From: Desulfarculales bacterium
GTDB taxonomy: Bacteria; Desulfobacterota; Desulfarculia; Desulfarculales; Desulfarculaceae
Length of the DNA stretch: 43,519 nt
Direction of reading: 5' to 3'
NCBI GenBank assembly: GCA_031267815.1
Contig: JAIRYI010000018.1
Span: forward strand, 1-43,519
Part shown: piece by piece, positions 19,651-30,397 of the stretch
Position numbering within the stretch: the first letter of the stretch is position 1
How the letters are laid out: each line of letters opens with the position of its first letter
Position numbers and translations under genes: made by a program
Notes under the pieces: generated by a model
Told to the model about the DNA's origin: nothing
Databases searched by the model: none
What the model saw: the letters and a program-made list of their open reading frames with translations, nothing else

Positions 19651-20691
19651 TTATAAATGTTCGTTCCGTACGGCGTCAGTCATGGCGCGAATAACCGCCA
19701 GCCTGGTGGAAGTACTCAGGCCGCAGGCAGGGGCAATTATGTCTACGCCGTCATCCATCAGCTTGCGCGCGCGCCTGACTACTTTTTCCGGCGGGCCAAA
19801 CTCCAGCAGAAAAGTGCTGATATTGCCCATGGCGGCTATTTGGGGGAATGAACGCTTGAGCCGGGCCAGATTAATCATCGCGTCAACACTGACGGCGTCA
19901 GATTCAATCAAGGGCCACAGATCGCGGCAACGTTCTGTATCGCCGCAGATATGAACAATGGTGGGCGCTCCCTCTTCATGGACAGCCCGGACAATATCAC
20001 GCAAATAGGGGACCGCGAATTCTTCAAAAAGCGCCGGCCCTAAAATTTCCCCGGTAGCGCTGGGATCACCGACAGCCACCACATCAGCCCCTTTGCGCAC
20101 GGCTAACCGGGCATATTGCGACAGGAAATCCGTCACCTGGCGCTGCACCCGATGGGCTTCTTTTTTATTCTTTCTGAGTTCTTTAAAAAAAGAGCGCGGC
20201 TCCACCAGAGAGGCGGAAGTACTCAGAGGACCGGTAATGCTTACGATTACGGGCAAGTCCGTCCCAGCCCCAGCCAAGCGTTCAACAGCTTCAAACACTA
20301 TGGGCAGGCGCGCGGACGTAAACAGTTTTTCCGTATCCCATGGGGGGACGTCAGCAGCCGAGGCATAGGCTTCAGATACGATTTTAGGCTCACAGGCCAG
20401 TGTTCCCGGATCAATGACGCTGCCCAAGGCTTCAGCTTCCACTGTCATGCAAAAAGGAACGGCGAGGTTTTCGAAGCCGGTGGCCCGAGCCACGGCCAAG
20501 GCCAGATCGGCCATTTTCGCGCCATGGAAATGAGCGTCAGGCAGAGTGGCGGAACAATCCCCGGCAATCTCCGTAATAGCGGCGTTCATCATGCCGCCCA
20601 TGCAGGCCACCGGAGGCCGGTCCACATGCTGGCAGCGCAAAGCCTTAAGCAGGCGCTGCCGGGGAGTGAGATTTACATCCTGAACCGTCAT
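19651..20691 (-). CDS. UroD/MtaA-family corrinoid-dependent methyltransferase (copy 2)
   Basis: The 346-residue TIM-barrel protein belongs to the uroporphyrinogen decarboxylase superfamily branch that contains MtaA, MtbA and CmuA methyltransferases. The zinc site of that branch is visible as H247-x-C249 (TIVHICGD) and C323 (IIAPACGLS), which argues for methyl transfer rather than porphyrin decarboxylation. The start ATG overlaps the stop of the corrinoid-protein gene by 4 bases (ATGA), so translation is coupled and interaction with that protein is likely. It could act as methyltransferase I on the imported substrate or methyltransferase II on the carrier. The sequence alone does not decide. 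Confidence 0.88.
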   Translation of the reverse strand: MTVQDVNLTPRQRLLKALRCQHVDRPPVACMGGMMNAAITEIAGDCSATLPDAHFHGAKMADLALAVARATGFENLAVPFCMTVEAEALGSVIDPGTLACEPKIVSEAYASAADVPPWDTEKLFTSARLPIVFEAVERLAGAGTDLPVIVSITGPLSTSASLVEPRSFFKELRKNKKEAHRVQRQVTDFLSQYARLAVRKGADVVAVGDPSATGEILGPALFEEFAVPYLRDIVRAVHEEGAPTIVHICGDTERCRDLWPLIESDAVSVDAMINLARLKRSFPQIAAMGNISTFLLEFGPPEKVVRRARKLMDDGVDIIAPACGLSTSTRLAVIRAMTDAVRNEHL

Positions 20692-21368
20692 GACGCGCTC
20701 AAACTTCCCAGGATCCGCCTTTGCGCAAGCAGCTTCAAGGCCAGATCGCCCGCGGCCATGGCGTTGGCCGAATAACCGTCAGCCCCGATTTTTCGCGCAA
20801 ACCCTTGAGAGATGGGAGCCCCGCCTATCATCACTTTAATCCGCTCCCGAAGGCCCGCTTCATGCAACATCTCAATGACTCGCGCCATGCCGGCCATAGT
20901 GGTCGTCATCAGGGTGGACAGGCCTATGATATCAGCTTTTATTTCCTTCGCTTTGGCAACAAACACGGAGGGAGGCACGTCGCGTCCAAGATCATGAACT
21001 TCAAATCCTTTGGCCTCCAAAATAATTTTAACCAAATTTTTGCCGATATCATGGGTATCTCCCTCAACAACCCCGATCACGATTCTGCCGGGCGCTGACG
21101 AGCTGTCCGCGGCTATATGCTGGCGCAGGACCTCAATGCCCGCATACATGGCGTCGGCGGCTATGAGAAGTTCGGGAACAAAGTATTCATCTTCTTCAAA
21201 TAGCCGCCCCGCGCGCTCCATGCCGTGGGCCAGACCTTTATCAATGGCTTCATAAGCATCGATTTTTTCCTCTACCACCTCCCGCGCCAGATCCGCCGCT
21301 TTATTTTCTTCCATCTCCACAACCGAGTCAGAAAGTTCCTGAAATAAAATTTCCTTGCTTTTGGCCAT
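20688..21368 (-). CDS. Corrinoid (B12-binding) methyl-carrier protein, MtaC/MtbC type
   Basis: This 226-residue protein carries the methyl group on cobalt. A helical cap domain occupies about 1-90. The Rossmann-like B12 domain has the motif D104-x-H106-x-x-G109 (GDTHDIG), with H106 the lower cobalt ligand. SxL lies at 151-153 and the GG pair at 182-183 (MIGGAP). Size and motifs match the MtaC, MtbC and MttC family. It lies between the two UroD-family methyltransferase genes, overlapping the downstream one by 4 bases. A dispersed hairpin (21393-21422) sits upstream, inside the operon, and might alter its expression relative to the first gene. Confidence 0.93.
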   Translation of the reverse strand: MAKSKEILFQELSDSVVEMEENKAADLAREVVEEKIDAYEAIDKGLAHGMERAGRLFEEDEYFVPELLIAADAMYAGIEVLRQHIAADSSSAPGRIVIGVVEGDTHDIGKNLVKIILEAKGFEVHDLGRDVPPSVFVAKAKEIKADIIGLSTLMTTTMAGMARVIEMLHEAGLRERIKVMIGGAPISQGFARKIGADGYSANAMAAGDLALKLLAQRRILGSLSAS

Positions 21369-21392
21369 GCCTCACCTCTTAAGTTAGCAGAC

Positions 21393-21422
21393 CCTGAAAA
21401 AGCCGAAACCGACTTTTTCAGG
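21393..21422. repeat. Dispersed inverted repeat R2, copy A
   Basis: CCTGAAAAAG (21393-21402) pairs perfectly with CTTTTTCAGG (21413-21422) around a short CCGAAACCGA centre. A copy with about three differences lies at 28901-28930. This copy is in the 102-base gap between the first methyltransferase gene and the corrinoid-protein gene. It has no T-run after it in the direction of transcription beyond its own arm. Confidence 0.6.
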
Positions 21423-21470
21423 ATCGGTTGAGTTAAATTTCTCGGATAAACTCCTGTTTAAATCTCCAAG

Positions 21471-22529
21471 TCACAAATATTCCGGCCGCACCGGCCAGCC
21501 CGCTTCCCGGGCCGCGTCAAGCATAGCGTCAATATTGGCAAAAGGCGTTTCCGTGGCCAGACTGCAACCGCTGGCCAGGATAAAGCCGCGCGGATTGTCC
21601 CATGCCTCGCGGATACATTTACGGGCCGCCGCGCGCACATCCGCGCAAGTGCCTTGCAGCAACACCTCCGCGGGCGGAATATTACCCATCAGGCACACCC
21701 GGCCGCCTACAATCTTTTTGGCTTCATCAAGGTGAGCCATGTTGTCTATGGACAGGCAGGCCGCGCCGGTATCCGCCATGCCGGTCCATATGGGCGCGGT
21801 CTTGCCGCAAATGTGCAGCGTCACCGAGGCAATGCCGCGCGCTTTGATATGCTCGGTTAATTTTGTCAAATACGGCTGGGAAAAATCCTTAAACAGCCTG
21901 GGACTGATGACAGTGGACGAACTCATGGCGCAGGTGAGGCTGGGGACAGCGCCAATATCAATGACCGCGTCAGCAAGCCGGAGGGAAGCTTCGCAGGCAA
22001 TGGCGATTACCCGGTGCGCGCTTTCCGGTTTTTTAAGCATCCAGCGGGAAAGGTTGTCCGCTCCGACCAAAAGTGAGGCCAAAGTAAAAGGTCCTTCAAC
22101 TCCGCAGGAAACAGGAACTTCCTGCCCGATGGCCTCCAGAGTGCGGCGGGTGGCTTCCAAAAGCGCCGGGAGCGGCCCGTCTTTATAAGGGTCATGAGGC
22201 GTAAGCCGGTTTATATCGCTTTCATGGCTGATGGCCGGTGAATCAAGATGAGCGGTTTCATCCAGAGGCACACGCACTTTTGATCCCATCGCCTCCGGCT
22301 GAACGTACAAATCGGTGAATACGCGCACAGCGTCAAACCCAAAACGCCGGTAGGTGGCGATGGTGGCGCGGGCCAAGGTTGCGCCGCTAATGCGCAATTC
22401 CGAAACCTTCACCCCTATCACCCGGGCGGCGGTATTCGAGATAGACGGCACACAGCGCATCCGGTCTGCCGGCCGGCCCTCTTGTAATGCCTGAGCGCGC
22501 TCGACAGGCGTCATTAAATCTTCAGGCAT
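21471..22529 (-). CDS. UroD/MtaA-family corrinoid-dependent methyltransferase (copy 1)
   Basis: This is the first gene of the operon. It encodes a 352-residue TIM-barrel protein of the MtaA/CmuA branch of the UroD superfamily. Zinc ligands are H239-x-C241 (VTLHICGK) and C322 (LASGCSLATET), as in methylcobalamin:thiol methyltransferases. It resembles the other UroD-family protein of the operon only loosely, so the two probably have different methyl donors or acceptors. AAAGGAG lies 10-12 bases before the ATG. In methanogens MtaA passes the methyl group to coenzyme M. A bacterium would more likely use tetrahydrofolate or a thiol, but this is inference. No MttB, MtaB or MtrH homologue is in the window. 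Confidence 0.88.
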   Translation of the reverse strand: MPEDLMTPVERAQALQEGRPADRMRCVPSISNTAARVIGVKVSELRISGATLARATIATYRRFGFDAVRVFTDLYVQPEAMGSKVRVPLDETAHLDSPAISHESDINRLTPHDPYKDGPLPALLEATRRTLEAIGQEVPVSCGVEGPFTLASLLVGADNLSRWMLKKPESAHRVIAIACEASLRLADAVIDIGAVPSLTCAMSSSTVISPRLFKDFSQPYLTKLTEHIKARGIASVTLHICGKTAPIWTGMADTGAACLSIDNMAHLDEAKKIVGGRVCLMGNIPPAEVLLQGTCADVRAAARKCIREAWDNPRGFILASGCSLATETPFANIDAMLDAAREAGWPVRPEYL

Positions 22530-24095: not shown

Positions 24096-24578
24096 TCAGC
24101 ACAGAGGGCCTTCTTCCCGACGGCGGGCAATAGAGTATATGATAAAAGCGCTCACCATTTTGCTTATGGTCATACTCAGAAAAGTAAGCGGAGAAAACAT
24201 ATCAATCAGACCCAGGAAAATCAGGCTGTCGATGGGGGTGCTGACCGCGCTGGAAAGCAAAATGCGTTTGTAAAAAGGCTTGCCGGAAAATGTATACAGA
24301 CCCCAATCGATTAATTCGCTGCTTAGAAAAGCCGCCATGCTGGCCGCGGCTATTTCCGGGGTGGCCATATACCAACTGATAATGCCGCCCAATAACATAG
24401 CCGGCAGGACAAGGTGGCCTATTTTGCGCTGGGCGTAATCGCGGATTACAAAAGTAAAGCCCACCAGCAAAGATACGGGAGGCCATACGCCGCCTCCGGG
24501 CAGGACATACACCGGCGCGTAGGCAAAGGCCCAATTGACAAGAACAACATTGGCTATGTATAAAAGCGCATAAGGCAT
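24096..24578 (-). CDS. VUT family queuosine-precursor transporter (YhhQ-like)
   Basis: The 160-residue inner-membrane protein has about five to six hydrophobic segments and the VUT (DUF165) hallmark RDYAQRKIG at about 46-54. It also has conserved acidic and serine positions in SSELIDWGLYTF and STPIDSLIFLG. E. coli YhhQ of this family imports preQ0/preQ1. The divergent neighbour is queF, which strongly supports a queuosine-precursor role. The protein is shorter than E. coli YhhQ (about 220 residues), mostly at the N-terminus. No clear ribosome-binding site precedes the ATG. Confidence 0.8.
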   Translation of the reverse strand: MPYALLYIANVVLVNWAFAYAPVYVLPGGGVWPPVSLLVGFTFVIRDYAQRKIGHLVLPAMLLGGIISWYMATPEIAAASMAAFLSSELIDWGLYTFSGKPFYKRILLSSAVSTPIDSLIFLGLIDMFSPLTFLSMTISKMVSAFIIYSIARRREEGPLC

Positions 24579-24702
24579 GGCAAGAATCTTTTTATTTAAG
24601 TAGGATTAAAGCAAATTATTTTGTTGATTATAGCTTAATCGGCGTAAAAGGCAACGAGGGGAGGCAAAGCGCGCTTCCGGGCCGCGGGATATGAGGGAGA
24701 TT

Positions 24703-25197
24703 ATGTCTGGGAAAAATACCGAAAAAAATATTGAGACAGAAGGACTCAGCAAGTTGGGAGGGGTAACTTCTTACCGCTACCGTAATCCCGGCCCTGATAT
24801 ATTGGAAGCTTTCGCCAATCTTTACCCGCAACGGGATTATCTCATAACCTTGACTCACCCGGAATTCACCAGCCTCTGCCCACTGACCGGCCAGCCTGAC
24901 TTCGCCACTGTGACGGTCCGTTATGTGCCTGACAAGCTTTGCGTGGAATCAAAATCATTTAAACTTTACATGGCCGCCTACCGCGATCACGGGGCTTTTA
25001 TGGAAAGCCTGACCAATAAAATAGCCGATGATCTGATCGCCGTTCTGTCGCCCCGCCGCCTGAGCGTAAGCGGCGTATTCAATGTGCGGGGGGGCACGGC
25101 CATTTCCGTGCAGGTGGATCACATAGATCCATCCTTGCCGGGCACCCGAAGAGACTCTCTGGCCTCTCTCTGGCGGATCTATTCCGATTCCCGATAA
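24703..25197 (+). CDS. queF: NADPH-dependent 7-cyano-7-deazaguanine reductase
   Basis: QueF reduces the nitrile of preQ0 to the amine preQ1 in queuosine synthesis. The short type I form is seen. The segment EFTSLCPLTGQPDFAT carries the nucleophile C59 and D66, and ESKSFKLYM follows. In the Bacillus enzyme the next motif is F-H-E; here it is F-M100-E101, so the histidine is replaced by methionine while the substrate-binding glutamate is kept. I chose the ATG at 24703 because GAGG lies six bases before it; an in-frame ATG at 24691 has a poor site. The last codons and stop lie inside dispersed repeat R3. Confidence 0.9.
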   Translation: MSGKNTEKNIETEGLSKLGGVTSYRYRNPGPDILEAFANLYPQRDYLITLTHPEFTSLCPLTGQPDFATVTVRYVPDKLCVESKSFKLYMAAYRDHGAFMESLTNKIADDLIAVLSPRRLSVSGVFNVRGGTAISVQVDHIDPSLPGTRRDSLASLWRIYSDSR

Positions 25198-25624: not shown

Positions 25625-28417
25625 TTAAGTGAACAGGCCCATCTGCCTGGCCTTGCCTTGGGCCGGCGGGTTGCTTTCCCGCAAAAACGCGCCCCGCAGC
25701 CTGTTCCACAGAGGAGAATCCCTGCCCGCCAGGCGGCGGCCAAAAAGAACTCTCTCCCGGGCCCGGCTGATGAAGAGCCTCTCTTTGCCCCTGGTCAAGG
25801 CCACAAATAAAAGCCTGGCTTCTTCTTCCTCGTCCGCCCGGCCGCCGGGAGGCTGATAGGGCATCAGCCCCGCTTCCAGCCCCGCCACAAACACTACCGG
25901 GAACTCCAGGCCCTTGGCCGCGTGCATGGTCAGGAGACTGACCTTCTGAGTGCGGAAATTAAAATCTTCCAGCTCCTCCAAAGTCTTATCTTTAGCCCGC
26001 TGTACCGGAACATTCAACCGGTTAAGGGCGTCATGGATGATTTCCCCCTGCTGGTGCAGACGGTAAATAACAGCTATGTCCTGGGGGGCGTATTCCTTCT
26101 GTCCGGAATTTCTCCTCTCCACCTGGCGTGAATCCAGGCCGCCCAAAAGTTCCAGGCTCTGCCGGGCAATCCAGCGGGCCTCGCTCCAGGGGTCAGGCAG
26201 GGTCGCGGCCACAGGCGTCAGACCGGCGGGCAGCACTGGCAACATAGTTTTTTCCTCAATGCTTAAAAGCTGCCCGGCCAATTCCACAATCAAAGCCTGA
26301 CTGCGATAATTGCGTTTCAGATCCAGGCTGGCGCAAGGAGCAAAGTCTTGGTCAAAACATTGAAAAAGTTCTCGCCTGGCCCCCCGAAAAGCATAAATGG
26401 CCTGGCGGGGATCACCTATAGCGGTCAGCCGGCTTTTGCCCCGGCTCCGGCTGAGCAGTAGTTTAAGCATTTCCGCCTGGGCAGGATTAACATCCTGATA
26501 TTCATCCACCAGGATATGACGGTAACTTTGCCAGGGTTTGCCTTGGCTCAGTTCCCGGCAGGCCTGATAAACCAGGTCATCCAGATCCCAAGCTCCCATT
26601 TCCCGCAACCGCCGGGCATATAAGCGGCCGCAGGGATGACTGGCCGGGCCAATCCCCTGTTTCTCCAGGCTCAAGGCCTGAGCCAGATCCGCCACCGGGC
26701 TGTCTATCTCTTCTTGCCGGGCCAGATCTTTAAGTACAGCCAGACGCTCTTCTTCATCCAACACTCTCTCGGGCCTGCCCATAATTTCCCAGCCCAGACG
26801 ATGAAAGGTGCTGAGTCTGACCGCCGGATTAGCCAGACGGAGGCCAAGCTCCTGCGCCGCTTTGTTGGTAAAAGTCAGACCCAATATCTCTGACGCTTCT
26901 ATTCCCCGATTTAACAGATAGTTAATACGCTCAATTAACACTCTGGTTTTGCCCGATCCCGGACCGGCGCTGATCCGCAAGTGGCTGCCCCGATGAACAA
27001 CCGCGGCCTGTTGTTCATCGTCCAGGCTTGCGCCGGGAGGGACCAGGCATGCCTGGGGGGCCGGAACCGCTTTTTCTTCTGATTTTGTCTCCGGGCGCAT
27101 GAGAAAAAGGGCTGCCGGAGAGGAAGGCAGGCCCAAAAGGCTGGCCTGACCTTTGATAGCGTCCCTTTCCTGGGCGGTGAACAGTTCCACCCGGCCAAAC
27201 TGCCCGTCATAGCCGCCGTGCAGAATCACTTCTCCGCCGCGCAGGCGGCGCAGGGCTTCGGCCATGATTTCCCCTCCCGTCCGCCGCGCCTCTTCCAAAG
27301 GCCAGTGGCGTAGAATAAACAGCTCCGCGCCCGCCTGGCGCAAAAGTATGTCTTTCCAGGCCGCGACCGTTTTACTCCCCGCCCCTTTGCCCAGCACCTG
27401 GCTTAATACCTGATTTAAAGAGGTGAGAGACTCGACCTGGGGCGGAGCGGACGGCTTATAGCCCAAGGGGCGGTCCGCCAATTCTTCCACCCGGTTCAAT
27501 ACCCCGATAGTCAGAGGGCGGGCGCAAATCGGACATACTCCCCGGCATGCCCGGCTTTCTTCCGGGGTCAGGCATACCCCGCAGGCACGGTGGCCGTCCA
27601 AATGATATTTGCCTTCATCCGGGAAAAATTCTATGGTGCCGGCAAAATAAGGATGCCCGGGGCGGGAAAGGGCGGCGCGCAGAGAAGGGAAATCTCCTTC
27701 GCAAGCCAGCAGATTGGCCTCGCGGGCCAAGGTATCCAGGCTGTGAGCATCGGAGTTGCTTACCAGGACATAGCGGTCAAGCATGGAAAGACGCCAATTC
27801 ATGGCCGGATCAGAACTCAAGCCGGTTTCCAGGGCGGTAATGTGCGCGCTCAAATCGGCAAAGCATTCCTCTAAAGTATTAAAACCGCTTTTGCTGCCAA
27901 AAAGGCTGAACCAGGGAGTCCAGATATGAGCAGGGATAAAAATGGCGTCCGGGTGGGAGTCCAGACATATTTCCAGCAAATCGCGGGCGTCCAGGCCCAG
28001 AATAGGCCGGCCGTCGCTCTTTATATTGCCCAGTTTGTCCAAGGTGTTGTTAAGACGCCGCGCCGCCGCGAAATTGGGCAGGACAAGCAGGCAGTGAATC
28101 CTGCGGGTCTGGCCGCCGCTTTTATATATGCAGGAGACTTCGCCGCTCAGAACAAAGCGCGTATCTCCTCCTCCAACCGCCTCCGGCAGGGAAGCGCCCA
28201 ATTCATGCCGGCGCGATTGAGGCAGGGAGTAGACTCCTTCGCCGCCGGGAACCAAGCCTGCTTCCAGTTCCGCCATCCAGGCGGGATGGGTGATGTCGCC
28301 TGTTCCCAGAAGATTAATGCCTTTCATCCGCGCCGCCCGCCATAATCCGTCCAGAGACAAATTTTTGGAAGTGGCCCGGGAAAAGCGGGAATGAATATGT
28401 AAATCGGCTACCAGCAA
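25625..28417 (-). CDS. PHP - zinc ribbon - UvrD/Rep helicase fusion protein
   Basis: This 930-residue protein joins three parts. Residues 1-255 form a PHP-type metal phosphoesterase domain: DLHIHS with H7 and H9, PAHIW with H164, and SNSDAH with D223 and H225. A zinc ribbon follows, with C279, C282, C295 and C298. From about 465 there is a superfamily 1A helicase: Walker A AGPGSGKT (484-491), LVDEYQDVNPAQ, GDPRQAIYAFRG, LTMHAAKGLEFPVVF and LFVALTRGKERL. Such fusions are known as a UvrD-like group in anaerobes. A DNA-repair role is likely, but the phosphoesterase target is unknown. Translation starts at TTG, chosen because AAGGAG lies seven bases upstream and DLHIHS follows directly. Confidence 0.9.
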   Translation of the reverse strand: MLVADLHIHSRFSRATSKNLSLDGLWRAARMKGINLLGTGDITHPAWMAELEAGLVPGGEGVYSLPQSRRHELGASLPEAVGGGDTRFVLSGEVSCIYKSGGQTRRIHCLLVLPNFAAARRLNNTLDKLGNIKSDGRPILGLDARDLLEICLDSHPDAIFIPAHIWTPWFSLFGSKSGFNTLEECFADLSAHITALETGLSSDPAMNWRLSMLDRYVLVSNSDAHSLDTLAREANLLACEGDFPSLRAALSRPGHPYFAGTIEFFPDEGKYHLDGHRACGVCLTPEESRACRGVCPICARPLTIGVLNRVEELADRPLGYKPSAPPQVESLTSLNQVLSQVLGKGAGSKTVAAWKDILLRQAGAELFILRHWPLEEARRTGGEIMAEALRRLRGGEVILHGGYDGQFGRVELFTAQERDAIKGQASLLGLPSSPAALFLMRPETKSEEKAVPAPQACLVPPGASLDDEQQAAVVHRGSHLRISAGPGSGKTRVLIERINYLLNRGIEASEILGLTFTNKAAQELGLRLANPAVRLSTFHRLGWEIMGRPERVLDEEERLAVLKDLARQEEIDSPVADLAQALSLEKQGIGPASHPCGRLYARRLREMGAWDLDDLVYQACRELSQGKPWQSYRHILVDEYQDVNPAQAEMLKLLLSRSRGKSRLTAIGDPRQAIYAFRGARRELFQCFDQDFAPCASLDLKRNYRSQALIVELAGQLLSIEEKTMLPVLPAGLTPVAATLPDPWSEARWIARQSLELLGGLDSRQVERRNSGQKEYAPQDIAVIYRLHQQGEIIHDALNRLNVPVQRAKDKTLEELEDFNFRTQKVSLLTMHAAKGLEFPVVFVAGLEAGLMPYQPPGGRADEEEEARLLFVALTRGKERLFISRARERVLFGRRLAGRDSPLWNRLRGAFLRESNPPAQGKARQMGLFT

Positions 28418-28857
28418 GAAAACTCTCCTTGACGGCCGATAGAAATATCAGGCGCTGTCCTTAAAATAATTGCATCGTCCACATTACTGACAATATCGCC
28501 GTTCAGTTCCTTGGCGTCCAAAATGTAGACTTTGTCATTTCCCTTGTAAAGGGCGCAAACGATACCCGCATGGCGGAACATTACATCCGCATCGTTCGCC
28601 CTGAAAAACAAGGCTCCGGCGTTAGTGAAACACAATTTGCCATTGCTCATCCCGGTGCAATTCAGGTTCTTCAAAATTGATTCCCGTCCGAGTACATCGC
28701 TGATCTTTGCGGTCTTGATATAACGTTTGTATGCTGCTTCATTGAACAGTTCGTCAATCGGCAAGTCGTCACGGACAATTTCATCGTAACGGATCCTTTT
28801 ATGATTACAATGCAATTTCGCGCAATATTTTTTACAAAAAATATTTTGATTGTACAT
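28408..28857 (-). pseudogene. Fragment of a COG2865-type (AlbA_2/RecG-like) regulator
   Basis: The frame encodes up to 149 residues. From about HKRIRYDEIVRDDLPIDE onward it resembles the middle of COG2865 proteins, which join an AlbA_2 N-terminal domain to an ATPase-like and winged-helix part: FTNAGALFFRAND, then a CALYKGNDK segment and an ELNGDIVSNVDDAI segment. The AlbA_2 domain and everything after VDDAI are missing, and the tail runs into the ribosome-binding site of the helicase gene. This is a gene remnant rather than a working protein. The first ATG lies within the promoter described below, so translation from it is unlikely if that promoter is used. Confidence 0.7.
28824..28845. promoter_or_regulatory. 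Perfect AT inverted repeat at a predicted transcription start
   Basis: AATATTTTTT (28824-28833) and AAAAAATATT (28836-28845) are perfect inverted repeats separated by AC. The repeat begins four bases after the -10 box of the minus-strand promoter, so it covers the expected start site, as an operator would. As DNA it is also intrinsically bent-type sequence. Confidence 0.4.
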
Positions 28858-29031: not shown

Positions 29032-29101
29032 GCTGACAAGCAAATAAAAAAGGCGTATGATTAAGCAACGGGCAAAGGAGGCAAAAAACGCACGGAAAAA
29101 A

Positions 29102-30397
29102 ATGAGAATCAATCTTAACTATGGCCAGACGGGCATCAGAGTGGAACTTGACGATCTCTGGCCGGTTGATATTTACAGACGCCCGGCCATGCCGGTGTTG
29201 TCTGACGATGCTTTGGCGGTGGAGGAAGCGCTTGACCGCCCTTTTAGCGGAGAGGGCCGGTCTCCCTGGCAGGGAGAAAAAGCCTGTATTCTCATCAGCG
29301 ACAAAATTTGGCCCACGCCCAACGGCCTGCTTTTAAACGCGCTCCTGGGACGTCTGGAAGCGGTCGGGGTTAAGGATATAACCGTACTCCTGGCCAATGG
29401 CCTTAACCGCCCCCCCGGCGTCCAGGAACTGGAAGAATTGGCGGGCGGGCCGGCGGTGTTGCAGCGGGCCAAAGTGCTGTGCCATTATGCCCGGAAACTG
29501 GATACCCATGTGAATCTGGGTGTGACCGGCCGGGGAACCCCCATTCTGGTAAACCGCCATTTTGCCCAGGCGGATATAAAAATCGTGACCGGAATGGTGA
29601 GCCCTCATTTCATGGCCGGTTATTCCGGCGGAGATAAAGTCATCAGCCCCGGAATCTGCCATCAGGAAACCATCACCCACCTGCGTTCCGCCCGTATTCT
29701 GGAAGACCCCCGCGCCGCCAATCTAGAACTGGCCAACAACCCCATGCACGCCGATCAGATGGAAATAGCTTCCCGTCTGGGAGTTGTCTGGGCTTTAAAC
29801 GTTGCCCTGGACGAACGGCGCAGGCTTTCTTTTGTCAATTTTGGAATCCTTGCCCCCAGTCACGGCCAAGCGGTGAAATTTGTAGAAAAATATGTGACTA
29901 TGCCGGTAAAGAGACTCTATGACACGGTGCTTACCTCAGCCGGCGGCTATCCTCTGGATCAGACCTATTATCAGGCGGTAAAGGGCATGGTGGGAGCCAC
30001 CGGCCTTATGGCTCCGGGGGGGCAGTTGTTCCTTGCCGCTGAATGTAAACAGGGACTGGGGTCGCCGGAATTCGTACAGGCCCAGCGCCGCCTCCTGGCC
30101 CAGGGGCCGGAACGGTTTCAGCATAACCTGCTCAATAAGCCCCAGGCGGAAATAGATGAATGGGCCACGGAAATGCTTTTGAAAGCCATGCGCCGGGGAA
30201 CTATGACTCTTTACGCTCCCCTGCTCAATCAGGAGCAATCTCTGCTCACCGGAATCAAAGTGATAAGCAACCTGGAACCGGCTTTACGCCAGTGGCTGGA
30301 CAGCCGGGAAGACAAAGCAATTGCGGTGGTGCCGGAGGGACCTTACGTGATCCCCCAAGGTTTCAGCCCGCAGATATGCCTGCCTTTCCAAACTTAA
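29102..30397 (+). CDS. LarA-family (DUF2088) protein with altered active site
   Basis: The family prototype is the nickel-pincer lactate racemase LarA. The fold signature is clear: SDxxxPTPN, then PHFMAGYSGGDKVISPG. Counting from 29102, H169, K179 and H193 fall where LarA of Lactobacillus plantarum has H174, K184 and H200, which attach the cofactor. Two other positions differ: the LarA R75 site is W70 and the catalytic H108 site is N102 (GLNRPP instead of GTHRP). Lactate racemisation is therefore doubtful; another 2-hydroxyacid or a different reaction is possible. No larB, larC or larE is nearby. An in-frame ATG at 29057 exists, but the family begins at MRINLNYG. Confidence 0.8.
   Translation: MRINLNYGQTGIRVELDDLWPVDIYRRPAMPVLSDDALAVEEALDRPFSGEGRSPWQGEKACILISDKIWPTPNGLLLNALLGRLEAVGVKDITVLLANGLNRPPGVQELEELAGGPAVLQRAKVLCHYARKLDTHVNLGVTGRGTPILVNRHFAQADIKIVTGMVSPHFMAGYSGGDKVISPGICHQETITHLRSARILEDPRAANLELANNPMHADQMEIASRLGVVWALNVALDERRRLSFVNFGILAPSHGQAVKFVEKYVTMPVKRLYDTVLTSAGGYPLDQTYYQAVKGMVGATGLMAPGGQLFLAAECKQGLGSPEFVQAQRRLLAQGPERFQHNLLNKPQAEIDEWATEMLLKAMRRGTMTLYAPLLNQEQSLLTGIKVISNLEPALRQWLDSREDKAIAVVPEGPYVIPQGFSPQICLPFQT

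Follow-up and report, generated by a model that had tools for sequence, protein, structure and literature searches.

A full-length LarA relative that lacks the nickel ligand, the first catalytic histidine and Arg75 of lactate racemase

Four papers (PMC7583248, PMC11770544, PMC11851776 and PMC12611868) assign roles to five residues of lactate racemase, LarA. Arg75 contacts both the phosphate of the cofactor and the carboxylate of the substrate, His108 and His174 are the first and second catalytic histidines, Lys184 is the cofactor-attachment lysine and His200 is the nickel ligand. Departures from this set have been described. In a single-histidine subfamily that includes proteins of Blautia wexlerae and Streptococcus plurextorum, His174 is replaced by asparagine and Arg75 by lysine, while His108, the nickel ligand and the lysine are kept; these relatives have been proposed to act in one direction only (PMC12611868). 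The LarA homologue groups 12, 13 and 16 do not conserve the catalytic and NPN-binding residues and are possibly not true LarA homologues, according to PMC7583248. Among the results listed, our literature searches found no report of a LarA without His108 or His200.

We analysed a 43,519-nucleotide stretch of a Desulfarculales genome (contig JAIRYI010000018.1; hereafter the window), in which positions 29102..30397 of the forward strand encode a LarA-family protein of 431 residues. The open reading frame, its frame and its coordinates were borne out; an alternative ATG upstream, at 29057, would give a protein of 446 residues. Both Pfam domains score above their cut-offs (Lar_N, residues 7-205, 140.7 bits; LarA_C, residues 274-417, 65.9 bits). 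By sequence, the closest solved structure is that of Isosphaera pallida LarA, a broad-spectrum enzyme (9eid, E 1.4e-72). An AlphaFold model of the window protein, built with 32 homologues as input, has a mean pLDDT of 88.3 and aligns with 9eia_B at Z 51.3 and an rmsd of 2.1 over 418 residues; the control, a model of the homologue from Dethiosulfatarculus, reached a pLDDT of 92.2, with Z 51.5 and an rmsd of 2.2 over 417 residues. Dethiosulfatarculus sandiegensis is placed by NCBI in Desulfarculaceae, the family of the source genome. With both Pfam domains and the full-length fold, the window protein belongs to the LarA superfamily: it is a full-length LarA relative whose predicted fold matches lactate racemase from end to end. 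Its score against the NCBIfam model for nickel-dependent lactate racemase (NF033504) is 275.3 bits, below the equivalog cut-off of 460, and none of the four other LarA-homologue models listed is matched above its cut-off.

We located the active-site residues by phmmer and MAFFT alignments, using LarA numbering (the 2yjg racemase) for the reference positions. Trp70 (TGG, 29309..29311, forward strand as for all codons here) replaces LarA-Arg75 and Asn102 (AAC, 29405..29407) replaces LarA-His108; both exchanges had been predicted originally from the sequence, and no other histidine occupies the His108 place. The same prediction named His169, Lys179 and His193 as kept cofactor-attachment positions. 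Lys179 does correspond to LarA-Lys184 (29633..29638, a stretch that begins with Asp178 in place of LarA-Arg183). His169 (CAT, 29606..29608) is likewise kept, as the second catalytic histidine LarA-His174 rather than as an attachment residue. His193, finally, is mispaired: the nickel-ligand column holds Arg195 (CGT, 29684..29686), which pairs with LarA-His200 without a gap. In the predicted models, Arg195 of the window protein and His199 of the Dethiosulfatarculus control each directly follow the equivalent helix (188-194 and 192-198, respectively). The offsets to LarA, cited as a constant 5 to 7 in support of a sound alignment, are in fact 5 or 6 here; pairing His193 with the ligand required 7, and the wider range masked the error. 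Of the three cofactor residues (Arg75, Lys184, His200) one is thus kept, as is one catalytic histidine of two. The segment Tyr290-Gln291-Ala292-Val293-Lys294 (29969..29983) retains the substrate-binding LarA-Tyr294, Gln295 and Lys298, with Ala292 at a place where threonine is invariant in close homologues. LarA-Asp72, Asp356 and Trp358 are also kept.

The window protein shares its full-length fold with Isosphaera pallida LarA (LarAH2/Sar; 9eia, 9eid) and the group 2 short-chain hydroxyacid racemases, and is 35% identical to the Isosphaera protein in the structural alignment. Common to all of these are a phenylalanine or leucine followed by methionine past the second histidine, together with Trp358, Tyr294, Gln295, Lys298, Lys184 and His174. 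Unlike them, the window protein lacks Arg75, His108 and the nickel ligand His200. It resembles the single-histidine subfamily in that one catalytic histidine has become asparagine; in contrast to that subfamily, it has lost His108 and the nickel ligand and kept His174, which places it outside, and its fold match to the single-histidine structure 9q3k_A is weaker (Z 33.8, rmsd 3.2, 415 residues aligned). Going by the published description of groups 12, 13 and 16 alone, the window protein is like them in missing NPN-binding and catalytic residues and unlike them in lying inside the canonical clade. Among the homologues compared, none shared its residue set. Judged by its residues, the window protein does not qualify as an NPN-dependent racemase.

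The residues that it has lost do not vary among its close homologues, wherever these cover them. A genome_contigs scan with alignment A1 supplied the best 80 relatives, which with L010, L011 and L012 make 83 distinct homologues (L008 and L009 duplicate L047 and L082), 42-51% identical to the window protein. His174, Lys184 and His200 are each present in 83 of 83, and Arg75 and His108 in every sequence that covers them (82/82 and 81/81). Among the 29 same-class relatives, the five residues are all kept in the 28 with full coverage, and the partial L012 has the three within its reach; a 395-genome sample of the phylum gave nine more homologues, and all nine keep the five. Of the columns that do not vary in the other rows, the window protein alters 11 of 60, and the next highest member 2 of 62. 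Divergence alone was rejected as the cause: the terminal branch of L093 is longer than that of the window protein (0.98 and 0.90, respectively), and L093 alters two invariant columns and keeps the active-site residues. Of the columns conserved to at least 95%, the window protein alters 18/69 in the N-domain and 3/37 in the C-domain (Fisher p 0.039). In the alignment, then, the substitutions cluster in the cofactor domain, with the C-domain's substrate residues unchanged.

Fast evolution of the whole genome was likewise rejected. At invariant columns of the full sets (24 and 29 relatives), LarB of the source genome is altered at 1/50 and LarE at 1/32, which makes the loss specific to LarA. In narrower sets these two proteins are the most altered or nearly so (LarB 8/134, against at most 5/139 in others; LarE 5/97, against at most 3/100). 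Some general acceleration of the genome is possible, though far below that of LarA.

The reading that we prefer, with moderate confidence, is that the window protein is a pseudo-racemase: a LarA fold among the short-chain 2-hydroxyacid racemases that carries the changes His200 to Arg, Arg75 to Trp and His108 to Asn. The fold and the hydroxyacid pocket would have been kept and the two-base nickel chemistry lost. An asparagine at position 108 rules out two-histidine, proton-coupled hydride transfer, in agreement with the different mechanism envisaged in the original prediction, so the two-base reaction of lactate racemase presumably cannot run in this protein. A working nickel-pincer cofactor would most likely no longer be carried. 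The earlier suggestion that the protein may bind this cofactor is weakened, because the nickel ligand and the arginine that contacts phosphate and carboxylate are both gone; given the retained Lys184 and the presence of LarB and LarE, some form of the cofactor may still be bound. Some selection would be holding the reading frame, and a leftover role might be, for example, the binding of a 2-hydroxy- or 2-oxoacid between the domains. Several observations count against the pseudo-racemase. Lys184, His174, Asp72, Tyr294, Gln295, Lys298 and Trp358 remain, more than a dead protein needs; the variable columns are as drifted as in a neutral simulation, a test that does not support selection on the whole protein; and no operon partner that hints at a role was found at the locus.

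The strongest competitor, which we consider possible and clearly less probable, is that the gene is a relic: relaxed selection in a small genome would be letting an ordinary LarA decay, its frame still open by chance. The source genome is indeed small, at 2.38 Mb compared with mostly 3-6 Mb in family mates, and the gene stands outside any lar cluster. To set against this, 431 codons run without a stop or frameshift, the substrate residues and the C-terminal motif are intact, and the changes are biased to the cofactor domain. We simulated neutral decay by random substitution in intact homologue genes up to 11 altered invariant columns. In 4000 runs, 5.9% stayed free of stops and 2.4% reached the observed 14 minimal codon steps (E167S takes three base changes and R178D two). 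Both together, no stop and at least the observed steps, occurred in 3 of 4000, by a statistic that was picked after the codons had been seen. The variable columns do not discriminate: 89.5% of the window protein's residues there occur in other members, the lowest value of all members, and 39% of 191 stop-free runs were at least as rich in family-like residues as the window protein, so this drift test does not reject neutral decay. On these mixed results, neutral decay of the window LarA gene is disfavoured. No relative close enough for dN/dS turned up among 63 genomes of the class, in the 395-genome sample of the phylum or among the 80 best relatives from genome_contigs; plasmids gave 15 records, all below 60% identity, and viral contigs yielded no close relative.

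The LarA gene stands alone, with a UvrD-type helicase and a small open reading frame, both on the opposite strand, upstream and MurJ downstream; no lar-type neighbour or operon partner that would point to a role or substrate was found beside it. Among the loci of the best 80 homologues, with neighbours named by eye, 17 have a LarC-like neighbour cluster and 15 a LarB-like one. The small open reading frame (28408-28857, reverse strand, 149 residues), between the helicase and the LarA gene, has no Pfam or NCBIfam match and is possibly a gene fragment, which would suit a locus in decay.

Elsewhere in the window, the helicase gene itself (25625-28417, reverse strand) encodes 930 residues in which a TIGR00375-like N-terminal part is joined to a UvrD-type helicase. 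At 24096-25197, QueF-II (preQ1 synthase) is divergent from an open reading frame with a weak match to Vut_1 (queuosine precursor transporter), a possible queuosine salvage pair. A cognate corrinoid protein flanked by two MtaA/CmuA-type methyltransferases (19651-22529, reverse strand) forms a methyl-transfer cluster with them.

Whether a cofactor is at hand bears on any remaining activity. The source genome, a draft in 109 contigs that is 92% complete, encodes one Lar_N protein. A lack of all cofactor-synthesis genes, which would have told against the original prediction, does not apply: LarB (281 bits, cut-off 175) and LarE (314 bits, cut-off 150) are both encoded. LarC, the third protein proposed for checking, was not found in the source genome, its expected place after lon lying beyond a contig end. 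LarC was detected in 55 of 60 genomes, with all 19 family mates among the 55; of 27 high-quality genomes, the source genome is the sole one without it. In five of five family mates examined, larC directly follows lon. The orthologous lon of the source genome lies on contig C94 and is 67% identical; pnp, a peptidase gene and an MBL-fold gene accompany it in the order seen in genome G002. The lon sequence stops at the contig end, with about 527 of 832 residues encoded. The absence of LarC therefore proves nothing, and we dropped co-loss of LarC with the LarA residues as an explanation, since the expected larC site falls in unassembled sequence. That LarB and LarE are conserved suggests continued synthesis of the cofactor or a precursor. 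The user could be the window LarA, a LarA hidden in unassembled sequence or a protein of some other type. Some genomes carry larB, larC and larE and no larA, as PMC11796402 states.

Two side observations concern these genes. LarE of the source genome (contig C98; 1386-2204 of locus L125, reverse strand) shares 55-63% identity with LarE of a second family of the class, f4, compared with only 34-43% with that of its own family, whereas LarB follows its own family; this hints at horizontal exchange of LarE. In family f4 (for example, G023 and G026), LarC matches span about 1-234 of the 375 positions of the Ni_insertion model, and LarC may be split or shortened there.

The presence of LarB and LarE, both conserved, fits an active NPN enzyme with new chemistry, in which Lys179 would hold the cofactor and His169 would serve as sole acid/base for a one-way or non-racemising hydride transfer. 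The retention of Lys184, His174, Asp72, Lys298 and Gln295 would also fit, and single-catalytic-histidine relatives suggested to be unidirectional provide a parallel (PMC12611868). Those relatives, however, keep His108 and the nickel ligand, and their exchange of Arg75 for lysine is conservative (according to the same text), whereas the window protein has arginine at the nickel-ligand position and tryptophan at that of Arg75, and no relative with the same residue set was found. We therefore regard an active enzyme of this kind as unlikely. Less probable still is an organic hydride carrier on Lys179, either the nickel-free precursor of the pincer (P2TMN) or a pincer with nickel that has no protein ligand, serving one-way redox between 2-hydroxy and 2-oxo acids; if true, this would be an NPN-family enzyme working without protein-coordinated nickel. 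Least probable of all are assembly errors or a shift in alignment register: the genome is a draft in many contigs, but three alignments concur and are gap-free at these places, the eleven codon changes are scattered with the frame intact, and the model sets Arg195 where the control has His199.

In the texts consulted here, the losses described concern His174 and Lys298, or groups whose divergence put homology itself in doubt. A triple loss (the nickel ligand, one catalytic histidine and Arg75) inside the canonical clade, where the genome also encodes conserved LarB and LarE, offers a natural test of the LarA scaffold without nickel chemistry. It also carries a warning for annotation: a match at the level of domains would name the window protein a lactate racemase.
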